Source: Bacillus sp. (in: firmicutes) (GTDB taxonomy: Bacteria > Bacillota > Bacilli > Bacillales > JACDOC01). From it: a stretch of 64,000 nucleotides of DNA. The stretch covers positions 310,001 to 374,000 of the forward strand of contig JACDOC010000001.1 of assembly GCA_017656295.1 (NCBI GenBank), written 5' to 3'. A program made the position numbers and the translations under genes. Shown piece after piece: positions 8,057 to 16,242 of this stretch. Under the pieces are notes generated by a model. The model saw nothing but the letters and a program-made list of their open reading frames with translations. It did no database searches and was not told the DNA's origin. Positions within the stretch are counted from its first letter, which is position 1, and the number at the start of each line of letters is the position of its first letter.

Positions 8057-8503
8057 ATGAACATTCAAACGAAGTATCACGGAGAAATGACCATTAATCT
8101 GACGGATATTATCACTTTTGAACAAGGAATTCCGGGATTTCCGGATGAAAATGAATTTGTCTTTTTACCGTTACCGGAGAATGATGTGTTTTTCATCATG
8201 CAATCCGTTAAAAGCGCTAACCTCGGATTTGTCGTTGTGAATCCCTTTCATTTTTTTAAAGACTACGATTTTACGTTACCGGATGCAGTAGTATCTCAAC
8301 TTCAACTGACTTCAACGAACGAAGTAGAAGTGTATGTCATTTTGACCGTCCAAGATCCATTTACAAAAACGACGGCTAATCTTCAAGCCCCTGTCATTGT
8401 GAATCGTAATAAACAGCTAGGTAAGCAAGTGATATTAAACGACACGAACTATCGAACAAAACATCTATTGTTCGAAGCCCAACTTCAAGGGTCAAAGGGG
8501 TGA
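8057..8503 (+). CDS. fliW: FliW, flagellar assembly factor and CsrA antagonist
   Basis: 148-aa protein of usual length with the family motifs [11 protein letters not shown] and [18 protein letters not shown]-like segment near the C-terminus. FliW binds either flagellin or CsrA. When cytoplasmic flagellin is depleted, FliW is released and sequesters CsrA, allowing flagellin translation. It is 4 nt upstream of csrA, a fixed pairing in bacilli, and directly precedes the two flagellin genes whose leaders carry CsrA sites. Confidence 0.95.
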
Positions 8504-8507
8504 GAAG

Positions 8508-8741
8508 ATGCTTGTCTTATCAAGAAAGCTAAATGAAGCGATTCAAATAGGGGATGACATTGAAATAAAAATTTTATCAATTACTAATGACCAAGTGAAA
8601 ATCGGCATCAAAGCCCCCAAACATCTTGAAATTTATCGAAAAGAGATTTACATAGACATTCAAAAAGAAAACGCCGAAGCATCGAAAGAAGTGAATAATC
8701 TACTATCACTCTTAAAACAAAACAACGACAAATCTCGATAA
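8508..8741 (+). CDS. csrA: CsrA translational regulator
   Basis: 77-aa RNA-binding protein that represses flagellin translation by covering the Shine-Dalgarno sequence. The core [20 protein letters not shown] is followed by [13 protein letters not shown], with the RNA-contacting arginine at position 44. A C-terminal extension of about 20 residues ([19 protein letters not shown]) is typical of Firmicute CsrA proteins that work with FliW. It overlaps no other gene and is co-transcribed with fliW. Confidence 0.95.
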
Positions 8742-8785: not shown

Positions 8786-8797
8786 AAAGAGTGAACG

Positions 8798-8878
8798 GGA
8801 GAAGATGAGGCGGCCGACTCATCTTCTCCAAAACCAATTGGCCCACAAGGACGTAGGCCGTAAAATTCAAGGAGGAAT
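8798..8878 (+). promoter_or_regulatory. hag1 leader with two CsrA-type sites
   Basis: A 12-bp perfect hairpin (8798-8809 with 8818-8829) is followed by a second hairpin, GGCC (8840-8843) with GGCC (8856-8859), whose loop contains ACAAGGACGT. That is close to the CsrA consensus RUACARGGAUGU. A second GGA site, CAAGGAGGA, coincides with the Shine-Dalgarno at 8868-8876. The two-site arrangement is the known CsrA repression layout of hag in B. subtilis. Confidence 0.75.
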
Positions 8879-8886
8879 GATTTTTT

Positions 8887-10639
8887 ATGCGTATTAATCA
8901 CAATATTGCAGCGTTAAACACGTATCGTCAGTTAACTGCTGGTACAGCTGCAGCAGGAAAATCAATGGAAAAACTATCTTCAGGTCTTCGCATTAACCGC
9001 GCTGGTGACGACGCAGCAGGTCTTGCCATCTCTGAAAAAATGCGTGGTCAAATTCGCGGACTTGAAATGGCTTCTAAAAACGCGCAAGACGGTATCTCTT
9101 TAATCCAAACAGCTGAAGGTGCGTTAAACGAAACTCACTCTATTTTACAACGTATGCGTGAGTTAGCAGTTCAAGCATCAAACGATACAAATACAGCAGC
9201 TGATCGTGAAGAGATTCAAAAAGAAATCGATCAGCTTGTAGATGAAATTGACCGAATTGCAAATACTACTGAGTTTAACACAAAGAAATTACTAAATGGT
9301 AGTATTGGATTAAGTGTAAGTGACACTTCTATTGCGTCTAAAGTTAGTATGACGGCTGATACTCAAAATGGAACTTACACAATCGATTTGACTGGTGCTA
9401 CTTTAGGGACTCGAGCAACAACGACTGCTATAGCTACAGATGCTAGTGGGTTAGCTCAAGGTACAGGTATATTAACAGTAAATGGTGTTGACTTTGCTGT
9501 TGATACTACTACTAAACTAGAAGATTTAGCAGCTGATATTACTGCCAAAGTTGATGGAGTAGAAGCAATCTATGACAATGTTGCTAACACATTTGAAATT
9601 CGTACAATTGAAGTAGGTGCGGATCAGACTTTAGATGTTTCTGCAAGTGCTGATAACTTAATAAACAGTGAAACTTGGAACGCATCAGCTGTTAGTGATA
9701 CTGGAACTAACATTTCAGGTGTTAACGTAGATGGTATGGGTGCTAACACTAATGTTGCATATGATGGTAATAAAGTTATTGTAACTGGTGGTAATGCAAA
9801 AGGTTTAGAGTTCACCGCAAATCAAGCGGGTGCAGGTGTAACTGTTGATATTACTGTTGGGGGATCATTAAACTTCCACATTGGTGCTAATGAAGATCAA
9901 ACAATGAATGTATCTGTAAATGCCATGGATGCTAGCAACCTTGGAGTGTCATCACTTGATGTAACTACGGCAGTAGGTGCAGAGAATGCTATTACTACAA
10001 TTGACGATGCTATTCAGACTGTTTCTGCTGAACGTTCTAAACTAGGTGCTTACCAAAACCGCTTAGAGCACACAATCAACAACTTAGGAACATCAGCTGA
10101 AAACTTAACAGCTGCTGAGTCCCGTATCCGTGACGTAGACATGGCAAAAGAAATGATGGAGTTCACAAAGAACAACATCCTCTCTCAAGCAGCACAAGCA
10201 ATGTTAGCTCAATCCAATCAAATGCCACAAGGAGTATTACAACTTCTTAGGTAATTAGGATTGGAAGGGCGTCTAGTCTGGAAACGGGCTAGAGGATCAC
10301 TGGGTGAATTGCTGGGAGTTCCTAAAGCTCCATCAACCACAACGTAGCCGGAAACGGCAGGCGTGAAGGTTTGAAAATGATGGAGATGAAACAATGGATA
10401 ATCAGCAGCCAAGCTCCTGTGAGGAAACTCTGGAGAAGGTTCAACGACTAGGATAAACCACCTAAAGCGATAAAGCTATGGTGATGAAATCCGTAGGGTG
10501 GCAAGTGCCATTCGAAGTGCCCAGCCCCTAACTAGCGGAAAGCTAGAGGGTGAAGATATAGTCTACACAACGGTCGAAAGACGTTGAGGCATGGCAAGCC
10601 AACCAACAACCACAAGGAGTACTTCAATTACTTCGATAA
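8887..10639 (+). CDS. hag: Flagellin Hag1, split by one group I intron
   Basis: Filament subunit. Exon 1 is 8887-10209 (441 codons) and exon 2 is 10595-10639 (14 codons plus stop); splicing gives 455 aa. The conserved N-terminal D0/D1 ([36 protein letters not shown]) and C-terminal D1/D0 ([39 protein letters not shown]) are complete, with a hypervariable centre of about 210 residues. Unspliced RNA is also translatable to a 455-aa protein ending at 10254, because the first 45 nt of the intron encode a near copy of the exon 2 peptide ([14 protein letters not shown] against [14 protein letters not shown]). Expression is predicted to be sigma-D dependent and CsrA repressed. Confidence 0.9.
10210..10594 (+). 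ncRNA. Group I self-splicing intron 1 (in hag1)
   Basis: 385 nt with no internal protein gene. Core signatures are TTCAACGACTA and GAAGATATAGTC. GACTA (10446-10450) and TAGTC (10559-10563) form P7. P2 is a 9-bp stem with a GAAA loop at about 10271-10292, and P6a is GAG-GAAA-CTC at 10421-10430. P9 is CAACG...CGTTG with GAAA at 10568-10586, followed by 8 nt ending in the terminal G (10594). The 5' exon ends in T (10209) and splicing restores the flagellin frame. GGATTG (10258-10263) pairs with the intron's first six bases CAATCC and, with one mismatch, with the first six of exon 2 (a P10-like pairing). The exon-IGS part of P1 is weak, so the 5' site is less certain than for intron 2. Confidence 0.88.
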
Positions 10640-10687: not shown

Positions 10688-12069
10688 GGCTCTATAATAA
10701 ATGTTGGGGTTTTCATACAATTTTGGTCAAAAAAAAAGACACGCAACCCCGTCATTCTTTTATACTTGAATTGTCCAGAAACAAGTAAAAAGAATGGAGT
10801 TGCGTGTACTATGAATTCTATCATGAATATCCCAGGATTAAAAGACTGTCAGGTGATAAAAATGGAGGAGCGTAAAGGGGAAATCCTCCTCTATGTGGAA
10901 ATGGAGCGAAAGCCACACCCTTGTCCTGACTGTGGTCAGCTCACCAACAAAGTTCATGATTATCGATGGCAAAAAGTTCAACATTTAAAATGGTTTGAAC
11001 GGATGACGTATATTTGGTATAAACGTCGTCGATATGCCTGTGCTTGTGGAAAACGCTTTTCCGAAAAGAATACGTTTGTCAAACGATATCAACGAACATC
11101 GATTGAATGGAATCAGGCCGTGTCCGTATGCGCTATTAAGGGAAAGACATTTAAGGAAGTAGGGGATGTTTACGGTACCTCATCCACGACCATTATGAGG
11201 CGATTTGATCAAATCGCTCAAACGGAAGTCAAGCAAGTAGAGTCACTACCTCGAGTGATTGCGATTGATGAATATAAAGGAGATACAAGGGAAGGAAAGT
11301 ATCAACTCATCATCGCCGATGGGATCACAAAGCAACCCCTAGACATCCTACCGAACCGAAATAAAAAGACGATAAAAGACTACCTTCAAAGGCATGGTCA
11401 CCACGTTCAAGTGGTGATTATGGATATGAGTCCTTCTTTTAAGGCAGCCGTTCGTTCGGCCCTAGGGAACCCAGTGATCGTGGCGGATCGTTTTCATTTT
11501 TGTCGTTATATTTATTGGGGGATTGATCGAGTTCGCAGGCGTATTCAGCAGCAGTTTCACGACTATGACCGTAAAAAGTGCAAAAGAAAAAGGTACATTT
11601 TTTATAAACCTCAAAACACTTTAACTGAAGACGATCAGTGGCATTTAGAACGCTATTTGAATATGTCGGAAGAGCTAAAAAAAGCCTATGAACTAAAAGA
11701 ACGTTATCAATCGTGGTTTAACCGAGCGAAAGAGATCGGTCAAGAAATGATTAAAGAGGTAAAAAAAGAGCTGGAAGCATTTTATCAAGTAGTAGAGGAA
11801 TCAGGAATTCCAGAGATGAAACAACGATAGAAACGTTTCGAAATTGGCAAGTAGAAATCCTGAATAGCTTTGTGTATGGTCATTCCAATGGCTTTTTGGA
11901 AGGAATCAATAATACGACAAAAGTCATCAAGCGAAACGGCTATGGATATAAAAACTTCAAGAGATTTCGAGCAAGAATCTTATTGAGACATCAGTATAAA
12001 GGAATGGGTCTACATATAGGATAAGGGGTGGCCTGATTTCTTTACCACCCCAACATTTGACGGAGAACC
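10688..12069 (+). mobile_element. ISL3-family insertion sequence (1382 bp)
   Basis: The ends are imperfect inverted repeats of about 23 bp: 10688-10710 begins GGCTCT and shares AAATGTTGGGGT with the complement of 12047-12069. The element is flanked by a perfect 8-bp direct repeat, TTTTTTAT. It contains one transposase gene, now frameshifted. End sequence, 8-bp duplication and transposase all fit ISL3. Confidence 0.92.
10811..12024 (+). pseudogene. ISL3-type transposase, frameshifted
   Basis: Reading from ATG 10811 gives an N-terminal zinc ribbon (CPDCGQ...CACGKRF), a helix-turn-helix and the start of the DDE domain (VIAIDEYKG, VVIMDMSPSFKAAV, IVADRFHF). It then stops at 11830 with KQR. The rest (ETTIETFRNW...YGHSNGFLEGINNTTK...FRARIL) continues in the -1 frame to 12024. 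It carries the invariant glutamate region, so the break near 11815-11830 removes the third catalytic residue. No canonical slippery heptamer is visible, so this looks like decay rather than programmed frameshifting. Confidence 0.88.
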
Positions 12070-12098: not shown

Positions 12099-12125
12099 TA
12101 AACATTTTTGATTACCTCCGATAAA
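12099..12125 (+). promoter_or_regulatory. Sigma-D promoter upstream of the csrA2/hag2 region
   Basis: TAAA (12099-12102), 15-nt spacer, CCGATAAA (12118-12125). It would start a transcript near 12132. No other sigma-D-like promoter is evident before hag2. Confidence 0.65.
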
Positions 12126-12218
12126 AAAGATGAAAGGGAAAACATAGCATGCTATGTAACAAAATCCAATAATGTAACTTTATGTTTTCGAAAAATTTAA
12201 TAGATTAATGACGCTCAA

Positions 12219-12290
12219 GGATGAGTGAACAAGACTTATTTCATACTGCAGGAGGCGGTTTGAGATAGGTGTGTTTGCTCATCCTTTTTT
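12219..12290 (+). ncRNA. Terminator-like hairpin A with AGGAG loop
   Basis: A 12-bp outer stem (12219-12230 with 12273-12284, three wobble pairs) is followed by TTTTTT. Nested in it is ACTGC (12245-12249), loop AGGAG (12250-12254), GCGGT (12255-12259). A GGA in a hairpin loop is the classic CsrA recognition form. A homologous element lies after csrA2 (12656-12709). Together with the promoter at 12099 this would make an RNA of about 155 nt. Confidence 0.6.
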
Positions 12291-12473
12291 CTTTGGGGAA
12301 ATACAAATTTTGTCGGAATATGTAGAAATTTTTAGTCTTGTAAATGTATGTATAGGTAATTTATCCTATTATTTGTGTGTTAAATGGATACAACAATTCA
12401 ATTAAATTACATTTATAAAGACTTGTTTACTAGTATTTTATTACTACTAAATTCTGTGGAGGGAACTTAAAAG

Positions 12474-12647
12474 ATGTTAGTTTTAGGTAGAAGACCTGGT
12501 GAATATGTCGTTATAAATGACAACATTATTGTCAAAGTAGTAAAAAGCAACAAAGGAGATTTAAGATTAGCAATCGATGCACCAAAAGAAGTCTCCATCG
12601 TTCGAGGAGAAGTATACGAAGCAAGTAAAAATTTTAATAATACATGA
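12474..12647 (+). CDS. Second, short CsrA paralogue
   Basis: A 57-aa protein starts at ATG 12474 behind GTGGAGGGA: MLVLGRRPGEYVVINDNIIV, then VKVVKSNKGDLRLAIDAPKE and VSIVRGEVYE. It keeps the CsrA landmarks MLVL, RxxGE, the L-R/K-I-A/G-I-xAP block, and Arg44/Glu46. It differs from the 77-aa CsrA at 8508 by having the canonical RRPGE and by lacking most of the C-terminal extension associated with FliW control. It is flanked by two related hairpins with AGGAG loops. An RNA-binding role in flagellin control is inferred from family and position; no partner is known. Confidence 0.85.
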   Translation: MLVLGRRPGEYVVINDNIIVKVVKSNKGDLRLAIDAPKEVSIVRGEVYEASKNFNNT

Positions 12648-12655
12648 AACCTCAA

Positions 12656-12709
12656 GGATGAGTGTTTATGGATGTGCAGGAGGCATATCGATATCACTCA
12701 TCCTTTTTT
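12656..12709 (+). ncRNA. Terminator-like hairpin B with AGGAG loop
   Basis: A perfect 9-bp stem GGATGAGTG (12656-12664) with CACTCATCC (12695-12703) precedes TTTTTT. Inside it, GATGTGC (12671-12677), loop AGGAG (12678-12682) and GCATATC (12683-12689) form a 7-bp hairpin. The outer stem and AGGAG loop match hairpin A while the inner stem differs but still pairs. That argues for selection on the structure. It starts 9 bp after the csrA2 stop, so it may be its terminator as well as a CsrA target. Confidence 0.65.
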
Positions 12710-12788
12710 GCTATTCATAACTTCCCTCCACTATCTTCATCAATCTATTTAATATCCTCTTCTAAAAAAGAGGTTATTAATACAAAAA

Positions 12789-12832
12789 GTGGGTAAAACG
12801 GATGTTCCCACAAAAAATTAAAAACATGGAGG
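12789..12832 (+). promoter_or_regulatory. hag2 leader with two CsrA-type sites
   Basis: GTGGG (12789-12793) pairs with CCCAC (12807-12811) and presents AAAACGGATGTT in the loop, close to the CsrA consensus RUACARGGAUGU. A second site, ACATGGAGGT, overlaps the Shine-Dalgarno at 12828-12832. The layout parallels the hag1 leader. Confidence 0.75.
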
Positions 12833-12840
12833 TAATGTAA

Positions 12841-15362
12841 ATGAGAATTAATCACAACATTACGGCGTTAAACACTTATCGTCAATTAACTTCAGGTTCT
12901 ATGGCAGCAACTAAATCTATGGAAAAATTATCTTCTGGACTTCGCATTAACCGTGCTGGCGACGACGCAGCAGGTCTTGCGATCTCAGAAAAAATGCGTG
13001 GACAAATTCGTGGGTTAGAGCAAGCTCAACGAAATGCACAAGATGGTATTTCCTTAATTCAAACTGCTGAAGGTGCATTAAATGAAACACATGCTATCCT
13101 TCAACGTATGCGTGAATTAGCTGTTCAAGCTTCAAACGATACAAATACTGATGAGGACCGACAAGCAATTCAGGATGAGGTTAAACAATTAAAAGATGAA
13201 ATCAATCGAATTGCAGATACTACAGAATTTAATACACAAAAATTGCTGGATGGTTCAAAAGGGGCTAAAACAACAAGTGCGGATCTTACAGGTGGAGTGG
13301 CTTTAACCGCGTCAGCAGCATCCCCTATTGTAATTAAAGATGGTAGTGAAACAAAGAATAATGTTATTTCTGTGCTTTATAATGATGGGTCAGATGACCA
13401 TATGTTAACAGTAGAATTTGATGAAGGAAGTTATGATGATTTAGTATCTTTTACAAAAGAATTTAATGACAAGTTGGCAGCTGCTGCGAGCGAATACGAC
13501 ACCGCATATGGTACTACGATTTCAACAAATTTAGGGAAGTTTACCCTAGGATTTGATGTAGATTCTGCAACAGGGACAGTTCAGTTTAAAATTAGTGACG
13601 ACGGAACTGTTTCTGGTCAAACATTAACTATTAAAAAAAATGGGGCAAGTACAGAATTAGTTAATGCCTTAGGAATTAGTGGAGGCGATTTATCTCACAC
13701 TGGTGGTGCAACAGCAGGTTCAACTGCAGCAGGGGCAAACTCACAGGATACTTCGGGAACAGATTTTCAATGGGATGCATTTTCAGTTGATTTAGAAGAT
13801 GGTCTAAATCCAGAAGTTAACCAAAACAATGAACTAAAAATGGAAATGGACGGACTCCAATTAACTGCTGAAATTGCAGAAGGAAATTATACAGCCCTAA
13901 ATGGCGTAGGTTCTTTATCAGAAGCTATTAAAAATTCCATAGAAACAGCAATTGATAATGCAGTAGATGCACTATCAGCTTCTGATTTGGAAGCGAAGGG
14001 TTACCGTGGTGCACTTGCGGATATGAAAACAGCTTATAAAAACGATTTAAAAGCAAATTTAAATGTAGAATTTAACACAGAAGGTAAATTAGAAATTAGT
14101 AACACTTATTTAATGGAAGTTGATGAAGGTTCGAAAGGTGCTATTACTGTTGGAATGACAAATGTAAATGCGGATATTAAAAATTCTGGTGTTACATTCC
14201 AAATCGGTTCTAATGCATCTCAAACTATGACAATTAGCATTAATGACATGAGTGCAAGTGCAATTGGTGAAACAACAACTAAAGCTGGAAATACACTAAA
14301 ACTAGAAGATATTGATGTGTCAACAAAAGAGGGAGCACAAGATGCTATTGAAGTTCTTGATACTGCGATTAAGCAAGTTTCACAAGAACGTTCAAAATTA
14401 GGTGCATACCAAAATCGTTTAGAGCACACAATCAACAACTTAGGAACATCAGCTGAAAACTTAACAGCAGCAGAATCACGTATCCGTGACGTTGATTATG
14501 CCTTAGCTGCCTAAGTAGTGACAGGCACAGTCGTCCTAGCTGGAAACGGCTAGTGATTATGACCGGGTGAATTGCTGGGAACCCCTTAGAGCCTTTGACG
14601 CCACAACGTAGCTGGAAACGGCAAACGTGAGGGCTGGAAAAGTCAAAGGATTGGGCAACCGAGCAGCCAAGCTCCTGTGACGAAAGTCTGGAGAAGGTTC
14701 AACGACTAGGGTATACCGCCTAAGGCAATTGCTATGGCGATGAAACCCGTAGGTGAAGCAATGATGAGAGACATTGTGGATCCGAAGTGCCCGGCCCCTA
14801 ACAGGTAAAGCTGAGGGTGAAGATATAGTCTAGTCATTTGCGAAAGCAAATGTTCGCACGATGGCGAAAGAAATGATGGAGTTCACAAAGAACAACATCC
14901 TCTCTCAAGCAGCACAATCTATGTTAGCTCAATCCAATCAAATGCCACAAGGAGTATTACAACTTCTTAGGTAATTAGGATTGGAAGGGCGTCTAGTCTG
15001 GAAACGGGCTAGAGGATCACTGGGTGAATTGCTGGGAGTTCCTAAAGCTCCATCAACCACAACGTAGCCGGAAACGGCAGGCGTGAAGGTTTGAAAATGA
15101 TGGAGATGAAACAATGGATAATCAGCAGCCAAGCTCCTGTCTCGAAAGAGTGGAGAAGGTTCAACGACTAGGACATACCACCTAAGGCGAAACGCTATGG
15201 TGATGAAGTCCGTAGGTGAGGCAAGATAGCTGAACCGAAGTGCCCAGCCCCTAACTAGCGGTAAGCTAGCGGGTGAAGATATAGTCTACACAACGATCGA
15301 AAGACGTTGAGGCATGGCAAGCCAACCAACAACCACAAGGAGTTCTTCAATTACTCCGTTAA
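12841..15362 (+). CDS. Flagellin Hag2, split by two group I introns
   Basis: Second filament protein. Exons are 12841-14496 (552 codons), 14861-14929 (23 codons) and 15318-15362 (14 codons plus stop), all phase 0, giving 589 aa. The N-terminus [16 protein letters not shown] and C-terminal [41 protein letters not shown] and [14 protein letters not shown] are standard flagellin D0/D1. The variable centre is about 130 residues longer than in Hag1. Unlike hag1, the unspliced RNA stops at 14514 after ...RDVDYALAA and lacks the C-terminal D0 helix needed for polymerisation, so intron 2 must splice. Central codon use is AT-rich, as in hag1. Confidence 0.9.
14497..14860 (+). ncRNA. Group I self-splicing intron 2 (first intron of hag2)
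   Basis: 364 nt, no ORF. The 5' exon ends GTTGAT and the 3' exon begins ATGGCGAAAG, restoring RDVD-MAKE. P1 is clear: exon GAT pairs with GTC (14530-14532) with a T.G wobble at the splice site, and TATGCC (14497-14502) pairs with GGCACA (14524-14529) with one mismatch. P2 is CTAGCTG-GAAA-CGGCTAG (14536-14553), P6a GAC-GAAA-GTC (14679-14688), P7 GACTA (14704-14708) with TAGTC (14826-14830). P9 is CATTTGC-GAAA-GCAAATG (14835-14852), then 8 nt to the terminal G. hag1 has no intron at the equivalent position. Confidence 0.93.
14930..15317 (+). ncRNA. Group I self-splicing intron 3 (second intron of hag2)
   Basis: 388 nt, no ORF, same insertion point as intron 1 (GCT|CAA). The first 211 nt (14930-15140) are identical to 10210-10420 of intron 1. 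Downstream the two differ, but pairing is kept: P6a is CTC-GAAA-GAG (15141-15150) instead of GAG-GAAA-CTC. P7 is GACTA (15166-15170) with TAGTC (15282-15286). P9 is at 15291-15309 and is followed by 8 nt ending in G at 15317. Its first 45 nt again encode the alternative C-terminus [14 protein letters not shown] and a stop. Confidence 0.88.
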
Positions 15363-15423: not shown

Positions 15424-16242
15424 TCATTCACAATTTACTTCTTTCCATTTATATACTATTGACCAATAACTTCTCTTTAGAGCTTTATTGATTTCATCGA
15501 TGGTAGCTCCTTGATGTTTCATTTCTTTAAGAAGTTGTATTTCTTTGTCTGAATATGGGTCTCATTCAGGGAACTTATTTTCCCATTTTACTTCCTCCGT
15601 TTTTAACCGTTCTTTCCAGTTTGTTTTGTAATACATAGATGGGCAGCTATGAATGACTGGAGCAATTGTTTCGAAGAAGAGAAACGTATCTTTCACTGAT
15701 GTTGTTTTTAAAATCATTCCTTGTCCATCAGGGCGTTTGCTTAATCTAAATGTAATACCAAAATGGGTAGAAATATGTTGTTGTAATATTTGTAATTCGT
15801 GGGGAGGAAAACATTGCAAGTAGAGATAGATAGGAGGAGTTAGATAGATTTTTTTCTTTCGCTTGTTAATTCGTGAAGAGATGCAGAGTGAGCCGTCATC
15901 CATATATAAAATTGAAAGAAAATGTGGCAGTGTACAATATAACAATAAAGAAAGCGGCAGATGTTTGGTGCCATCATCATGATAAAAGAGAGGATATAAC
16001 TTTGTAAACAATGGTAGAGAAGATGAACGAATACAATGACTTTTTTTGATAATATATAAAAGACCATCAAAAAATGAAACTTTCCATTTTCGATATTCCA
16101 TTTGCTCGACGCCAAAATGTTCTCGGTAACTATGATTTTTTCTCCTATTATTTTTATAAAGTTTTGTGATTTCTCCATCACCGATAATGCTTGCAATTAA
16201 AATGTTTTGTTGTACTAGCGTTAGTTGGGATAGTTCATTCAA
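15424..16242 (-). pseudogene. Free-standing LAGLIDADG homing endonuclease with in-frame TGA
   Basis: Translation from TTG 16242 (RBS GAGGTGA) gives 226 aa, ending at a TGA (15562-15564). Two LAGLIDADG-type helices are visible, LIASIIGDGE (about residues 15-24) and FLSILYMDDG (about 108-117), each with its catalytic aspartate. This is a single-chain, two-motif endonuclease. The same frame stays open past the TGA for 45 more codons to 15424. It reads DPYSDKEIQLLKEMKHQGAT then IDEINKALKR, resembling a Myb/SANT-type helix-turn-helix DNA-binding tail. The TGA probably replaces a TGG (Trp). The catalytic core may therefore still be made without its tail. It is convergent with intron-bearing hag2. 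Confidence 0.8.

Follow-up and report, generated by a model that had tools for sequence, protein, structure and literature searches.

The csrA2-hag2 locus and its two hairpins

The stretch of DNA analyzed here, a 64-kb window, encodes two CsrA proteins and two flagellins, and the features relevant to this work are listed in Table 1. A sigma-D-type promoter had been proposed upstream of the second csrA gene, csrA2, and we found an exact match to TAAA-N15-CCGATA at 12099-12123. The csrA2 product proved to be a true CsrA, as had been claimed: the 57-residue protein begins MLVLGRRPGE, contains Arg44, and scores 74 bits against the Pfam CsrA model. Its score against the NCBIfam csrA model, 61.5 bits, lies under the curated cut-off of 70.1. 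The hag2 leader (12789-12834) contains a GGA-loop hairpin and a GGAGG Shine-Dalgarno sequence, which are absent from the preliminary description.

Table 1. Positions of genes and regulatory features within the 64-kb window
Feature	Position	Strand	Basis
fliW, protein antagonist of long CsrA; single genome copy	8057..8503	+	NCBIfam
csrA1, 77-aa FliW-linked CsrA	8508..8741	+	NCBIfam csrA, 96 bits
Sigma-D-type promoter, TAAA-N15-CCGATAA; predicted start ~12131	12099..12125	+	Exact match
Element A, terminator hairpin with foot TCAAGGATGAG and loop GC-AGGAG-GC; stem 12217-12286, then T-run	12208..12295	+	Fold, R1
csrA2, 57 aa, distinct short subfamily, without FliW-binding C-terminal tail	12474..12647	+	Pfam, lengths, tree split 98/98
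Element B, second terminator hairpin, foot and loop motifs as in A; stem 12654-12705, then T-run	12645..12714	+	Fold, R1
hag2 candidate upstream CsrA site (BS1-like), GTGGG/CCCAC hairpin with loop ACGGATG	12789..12811	+	Sequence reading
hag2 Shine-Dalgarno region ATGGAGGTA, candidate second CsrA site (BS2-like)	12826..12834	+	Sequence reading
hag2 flagellin, open frame until group I intron	12841..14514	+	NCBIfam flagellin; Rfam intron

Other features were observed nearby. The hag1 leader (8790-8880) contains a 12-bp hairpin without a U-run, upstream of a second hairpin (GGCC/GGCC) with a ACAAGGACGT loop and then a CAAGGAGG Shine-Dalgarno sequence, which are candidate CsrA1 sites. Three group I introns (Rfam; 10236-10586, 14487-14852 and 14956-15309) are situated at the flagellin gene 3' ends, one at hag1 and two at hag2, and the minus strand near the introns carries a LAGLIDADG endonuclease gene (15562-16242). 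An ISL3-family transposase gene (10811-12024), the frame of which is broken near 11830, separates hag1 from the csrA2 promoter.

The preliminary description placed csrA2 between two terminator-like hairpins that have AGGAG loops and share the outer stem GGATGAG/CTCATCC, with inner stems that are unlike yet paired, and folding confirmed this arrangement. The folding energies are -39.6 kcal/mol for hairpin A and -29.5 kcal/mol for hairpin B (z -6.9 for each). Both hairpins have a 5-nt loop, and they are by far the strongest of the GGA-loop hairpins scanned across the window. Both are stable and are followed immediately by a U-run, which is the form of an intrinsic terminator. The arrangement GGATGAG...AGGAG...CTCATCC occurs exactly twice in the 3.1-Mb genome, and the reversed control does not occur. 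A second CsrA-type motif, TCAAGGATGAG, is located at the 5' foot of both hairpins; neither this motif nor the occurrence of the element as a widespread family had been part of the preliminary description.

A candidate RNA family beside csrA2

Relatives of csrA2 were gathered from 54 loci in other genomes, together with loci from relatives of the host, and these loci were scanned for stable hairpins with a GGA in the loop. The initial 62 hairpins were selected for a GGA loop and a T-run, which means that those two features are partly ascertained; the foot GGA played no part in the selection. The same element flanks a short csrA gene on both sides in Bacillaceae, Paenibacillus, Clostridium, Desulfosporosinus, and Sporomusaceae. 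Typical positions are 100 to 30 nt upstream of the csrA2 start and 200 to 270 nt downstream of it. Within an alignment of 56 copies, 96% of cells are paired and 169 cells are changed on both sides, a level of covariation that was reached by none of 500 shuffles and that was far lower in slid controls. A covariance model made from these copies, R1, identified 73 non-overlapping elements in the fetched loci (E up to 2.5e-4), and it recovered second copies overlooked by the initial scan as well as elements without a loop GGA. In the window's genome, the model matched only A (E 3.4e-13) and B (1.7e-7), with the next match at E 0.12.

We also surveyed 299 genomes of the order, calling csrA2 at 60% identity or above and R1 at a threshold of E 0.001. 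The csrA2 gene is carried by 21 of these genomes, 18 of which contain an R1 element, and one of the remaining three holds a weak copy at the B position. Among the 278 genomes without csrA2, eight have R1 matches, none beside csrA2. Seven of the eight are short plain terminators with no GGA loop; the eighth (L113), the only one with such a loop, is found 3' of a comG-like cluster. A weak extra match (L053, 36-114), in which the GGA sits in the stem and the context is unclear, was set aside. When terminators in the fetched loci were examined for GGA at both foot and loop, the combination was present in 62 of 134 near csrA2, in none of 51 near FliW-linked csrA, and in 9 of 365 elsewhere, five of which are displaced family members. 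Searches of Rfam 15 at the gathering score with the window and with 10 loci, and at a relaxed threshold with the element alone, returned only chance matches to the element, and no earlier description of the element was found in the open-access literature, which leaves an earlier report elsewhere possible. Taken together, the alignment and the covariance model mark the element as a candidate new RNA family, Bacillota-wide, that lies next to csrA2 and flagellin genes.

Each element contains two CsrA-type motifs about 27 nt apart. The apical loop carries CAGGANG in nearly all copies, and the foot motif, (U)CA-N-GGAYGA, lies at the 5' base of the terminator stem. The foot GGANG is unchanged in 73 of 73 elements, while the 3' pairing partners of the foot Gs vary from C to U (C32/T41 and C42/T28); an invariant 5' foot with drifting 3' partners is expected if a protein reads the 5' strand. 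Most of the remaining stem pairs show ordinary covariation. A mostly conserved CA precedes the foot GGA and falls outside the stem, and some elements (L099, L100, L102 and L131) no longer have the loop GGA and yet keep the foot. The loop motif equals the CsrB repeat, CAGGA(U/A/C)G, and the foot UCA-N-GGAYG resembles the CsrA SELEX consensus, RUACARGGAUGU (PMC7652899). Furthermore, the distance from GGA to GGA is 20-30 nt (mode 27), which falls within the range of 10-63 nt over which a CsrA dimer can bridge two sites. This match of motifs, along with the genomic association, suggests that CsrA binds A and B.

Placement of the element and the CsrA2 protein

The usual order at these loci is sigma-D promoter, A, csrA2, B, hag leader, and hag. 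Of 36 related loci, 17 have an exact sigma-D promoter 5' of A, and the scan, which covered the sigma-D pattern, found no such promoter between A and csrA2 (0/36 loci) or between B and hag (0/22 loci). Because no sigma-D promoter was found between B and hag, transcription of hag would normally have to pass B. The element has the placement of a protein-responsive attenuator, with a terminator between promoter and gene and a candidate protein site that overlaps the stem. The explanation that A serves only to terminate the preceding gene was dismissed at those loci in which a sigma-D promoter separates that gene from A. In Desulfosporosinus (L038 and L051), B remains before hag although fliS separates csrA2 from hag, and in Clostridium ganghwense a strong copy (L120, 1501-1586, minus strand) directly precedes fliD, with a sigma-D-like promoter and no csrA2 within 1.5 kb. 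These two arrangements indicate that the element behaves as the leader of flagellar cistrons. The promoters 5' of A in Clostridium fit the sigma-D consensus less well, and hag lies at least 600 nt past B in some Clostridium loci. A promoter directly precedes the downstream element in L036, L064, L082, and perhaps L051.

The hag leaders of L045, L049, and L065 resemble that of hag2 described above in having both a GGA hairpin and a Shine-Dalgarno sequence that includes GGA. Between B and hag, the Paenibacillus loci L049 (5279-5310) and L065 (5273-5308) have a further hairpin, GGTAATAGG-stem-CTTGTTATA, the stem of which varies in sequence by species with pairing kept, and which may be part of the hag leader.

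CsrA2 and its short relatives form one side of a tree split (98/98) from FliW-linked and proteobacterial CsrA, and Arg6, R31, and Arg44 are kept in 60 of 60 short relatives. These relatives are mostly 49-62 aa long, and FliW-linked CsrA proteins are 73-92 aa; the csrA1 product aligns with the solved B. subtilis-type CsrA chains 1t3o and 5dmb up to residue 69-70. CsrA2 lacks the extended C-terminal tail of FliW-regulated CsrA of the B. subtilis type. Because FliW binds CsrA at this extended C-terminus (PMC7652899), CsrA2 is probably blind to FliW. Exactly one FliW is encoded in each of the 33 csrA2 genomes tested, which indicates that the FliW and CsrA2 systems coexist, and an R1 match is present in 31 of the 33 (one of them weak). 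Tandem csrA2 pairs were observed in L007, L036, L045, L050, L052, L054, L055, L056, L058, L061, and L064, and the tandem copies often carry one element each. At csrA2-hag loci of Lacrimispora and Hungatella (L072-L079), CsrA2 is longer, at about 67 aa, and the element could not be recognized convincingly (best R1 E about 0.3).

Proposed attenuation and comparison with known systems

Based on the conservation and placement of the element, we consider it likely that A and B belong to a class of CsrA-responsive terminators, a claim that is safer than any claim of polarity. The more specific reading is that they are conserved CsrA-responsive intrinsic terminators, or attenuators, that CsrA2 antiterminates within a sigma-D-driven csrA2-hag2 unit, and we regard the case for it as evenly balanced. 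In the nascent RNA, the 5' foot UCAAGGAUGA would emerge first and be single-stranded, and the inner hairpin would form next, displaying CAGGAGG in its loop. A CsrA2 dimer that grips foot and loop would prevent the foot from closing the terminator stem, such that RNA polymerase would read through into csrA2 at A and into hag2 at B. With no free CsrA2, the stem would close and transcription would stop. We infer from sequence features both that the ligand is CsrA2 rather than CsrA1 and that the polarity is antitermination. This model, if correct, accounts for foot, loop, and U-run as well as for the location of the element between promoter and gene. A point against it is that the foot GGA is paired once the terminator has folded and thus offers no CsrA site in the finished RNA. 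The general form of this proposal, in which a FliW-blind CsrA antiterminates a Bacillota-wide RNA family by bridging the stem and loop GGAs and provides a second, RNA-based layer of flagellin control beside CsrA1-FliW, is offered tentatively, as somewhat short of an even prospect. The usual action of CsrA at the hag leader sites is to repress translation, and candidate sites of this type are also present in the window. Antitermination and repression of hag by one protein appear contradictory in the absence of a difference in affinity or a division of labor between CsrA2 and CsrA1.

The preliminary description proposed that the hairpins are CsrA-binding decoys or CsrA-responsive attenuators that link csrA2 to hag2. 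This proposal was well aimed, and comparative placement favors its second half, a cis attenuator, over the decoy: the element follows a sigma-D promoter and precedes csrA2, hag, and once fliD, and a dedicated sigma-D promoter for hag is usually absent downstream of B. A decoy role is conceivable because A usually lies close 3' of the sigma-D promoter, and the terminated leader is thus predicted to be an RNA of roughly 100-160 nt with a CsrB-like loop. The main alternative to antitermination, which we hold to be unlikely, develops this role into that of a CsrA sponge. Most sigma-D transcripts would end at A (and B) and form an abundant pool of RNAs, each with a CAGGANG loop, that would titrate CsrA when sigma-D is active and so free hag mRNAs, with readthrough merely supplying some csrA2 and hag2. 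The identity of the loop to the CsrB repeat (PMC7652899) and the separate promoter of the second element in L036, L064, and L082 are consistent with titration, and an RNA antagonist would fit a CsrA2 that has no tail for FliW to use. However, the single accessible loop site per RNA would be weak compared with the many sites of CsrB. Titration also leaves unexplained the invariant foot GGA, the CA outside the stem, and the placement ahead of csrA2, hag, and fliD. A sponge role of the terminated RNA and attenuation could both be true simultaneously.

Less probable again, and in our judgment quite doubtful, is that loop-bound CsrA2 stabilizes the terminator, or bridges the A loop to the csrA2 Shine-Dalgarno sequence, and thereby shuts its own operon and hag in a negative feedback. 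The gap between the end of A and the csrA2 start is ~30 nt in most loci, with a CAAGGAGG-type Shine-Dalgarno sequence alongside, and this combination of a hairpin site with a Shine-Dalgarno site resembles the arrangement in glgC and hag; such autorepression would also be consistent with CsrA being a known repressor of hag. In the window, however, 188 nt separate A from csrA2, stems of -25 to -40 kcal/mol would hardly require stabilizing, and the invariance of the foot GGA and the T-runs would be left unexplained. Least likely, and improbable in our estimation, is that these are plain strong terminators that insulate csrA2 from its neighbors and carry GGA motifs incidentally, because, for all their ordinary intrinsic-terminator look and the few copies without a loop GGA, A is located between promoter and gene, GGA at both foot and loop is nearly missing from other terminators, and the family is almost confined to csrA2 loci.

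Antitermination by CsrA2, if true, would make the element the first CsrA-controlled intrinsic attenuator, as far as we could find, and would go some way toward accounting for the many bacteria that retain a short CsrA paralogue next to a second flagellin. In Bacillota, CsrA is described as being controlled by the FliW protein; the known RNA antagonists come from Gammaproteobacteria. According to a review, it is still to be determined whether any species uses FliW and sRNAs jointly (PMC7652899), and the presence of FliW in 33/33 and of the element in 31/33 csrA2 genomes makes this question directly testable.

Like the CsrB/CsrC and RsmX/Y/Z sponges, the element displays CAGGANG in a hairpin loop and is tied to a CsrA-family protein. 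Unlike those RNAs of Gammaproteobacteria, which collect many CsrA sites in one non-coding RNA, it is found in Bacillota, has one loop motif per element with usually two elements per operon, lies inside an intrinsic terminator before csrA2, hag, or fliD, and has its second motif in the terminator stem. The locus also shares CsrA, flagellin, and a GGA-loop hairpin with a Shine-Dalgarno site with the CsrA-FliW-Hag switch of B. subtilis, the hag leader of which has two CsrA sites (PMC7652899), and the window contains fliW-csrA1-hag1 as in that switch. It differs in that an additional CsrA lacks the FliW-binding tail and in that terminators precede the flagellin leader, whereas the known control in B. 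subtilis is of translation, not of intrinsic termination. The LicT/SacY RAT, TRAP, PyrR, and L10(L12)4 attenuators have an intrinsic terminator in the leader, and the binding site of the controlling protein shares sequence with the 5' strand of that terminator or competes with it. The element proposed here differs from them in that the ligand would be CsrA and in that we see no additional antiterminator hairpin and the model requires none. Finally, in the E. coli pgaA leader, CsrA at two sites remodels a hairpin and alters termination (PMC7652899), but termination there is Rho-dependent and is promoted by CsrA, whereas A and B have the form of intrinsic terminators.
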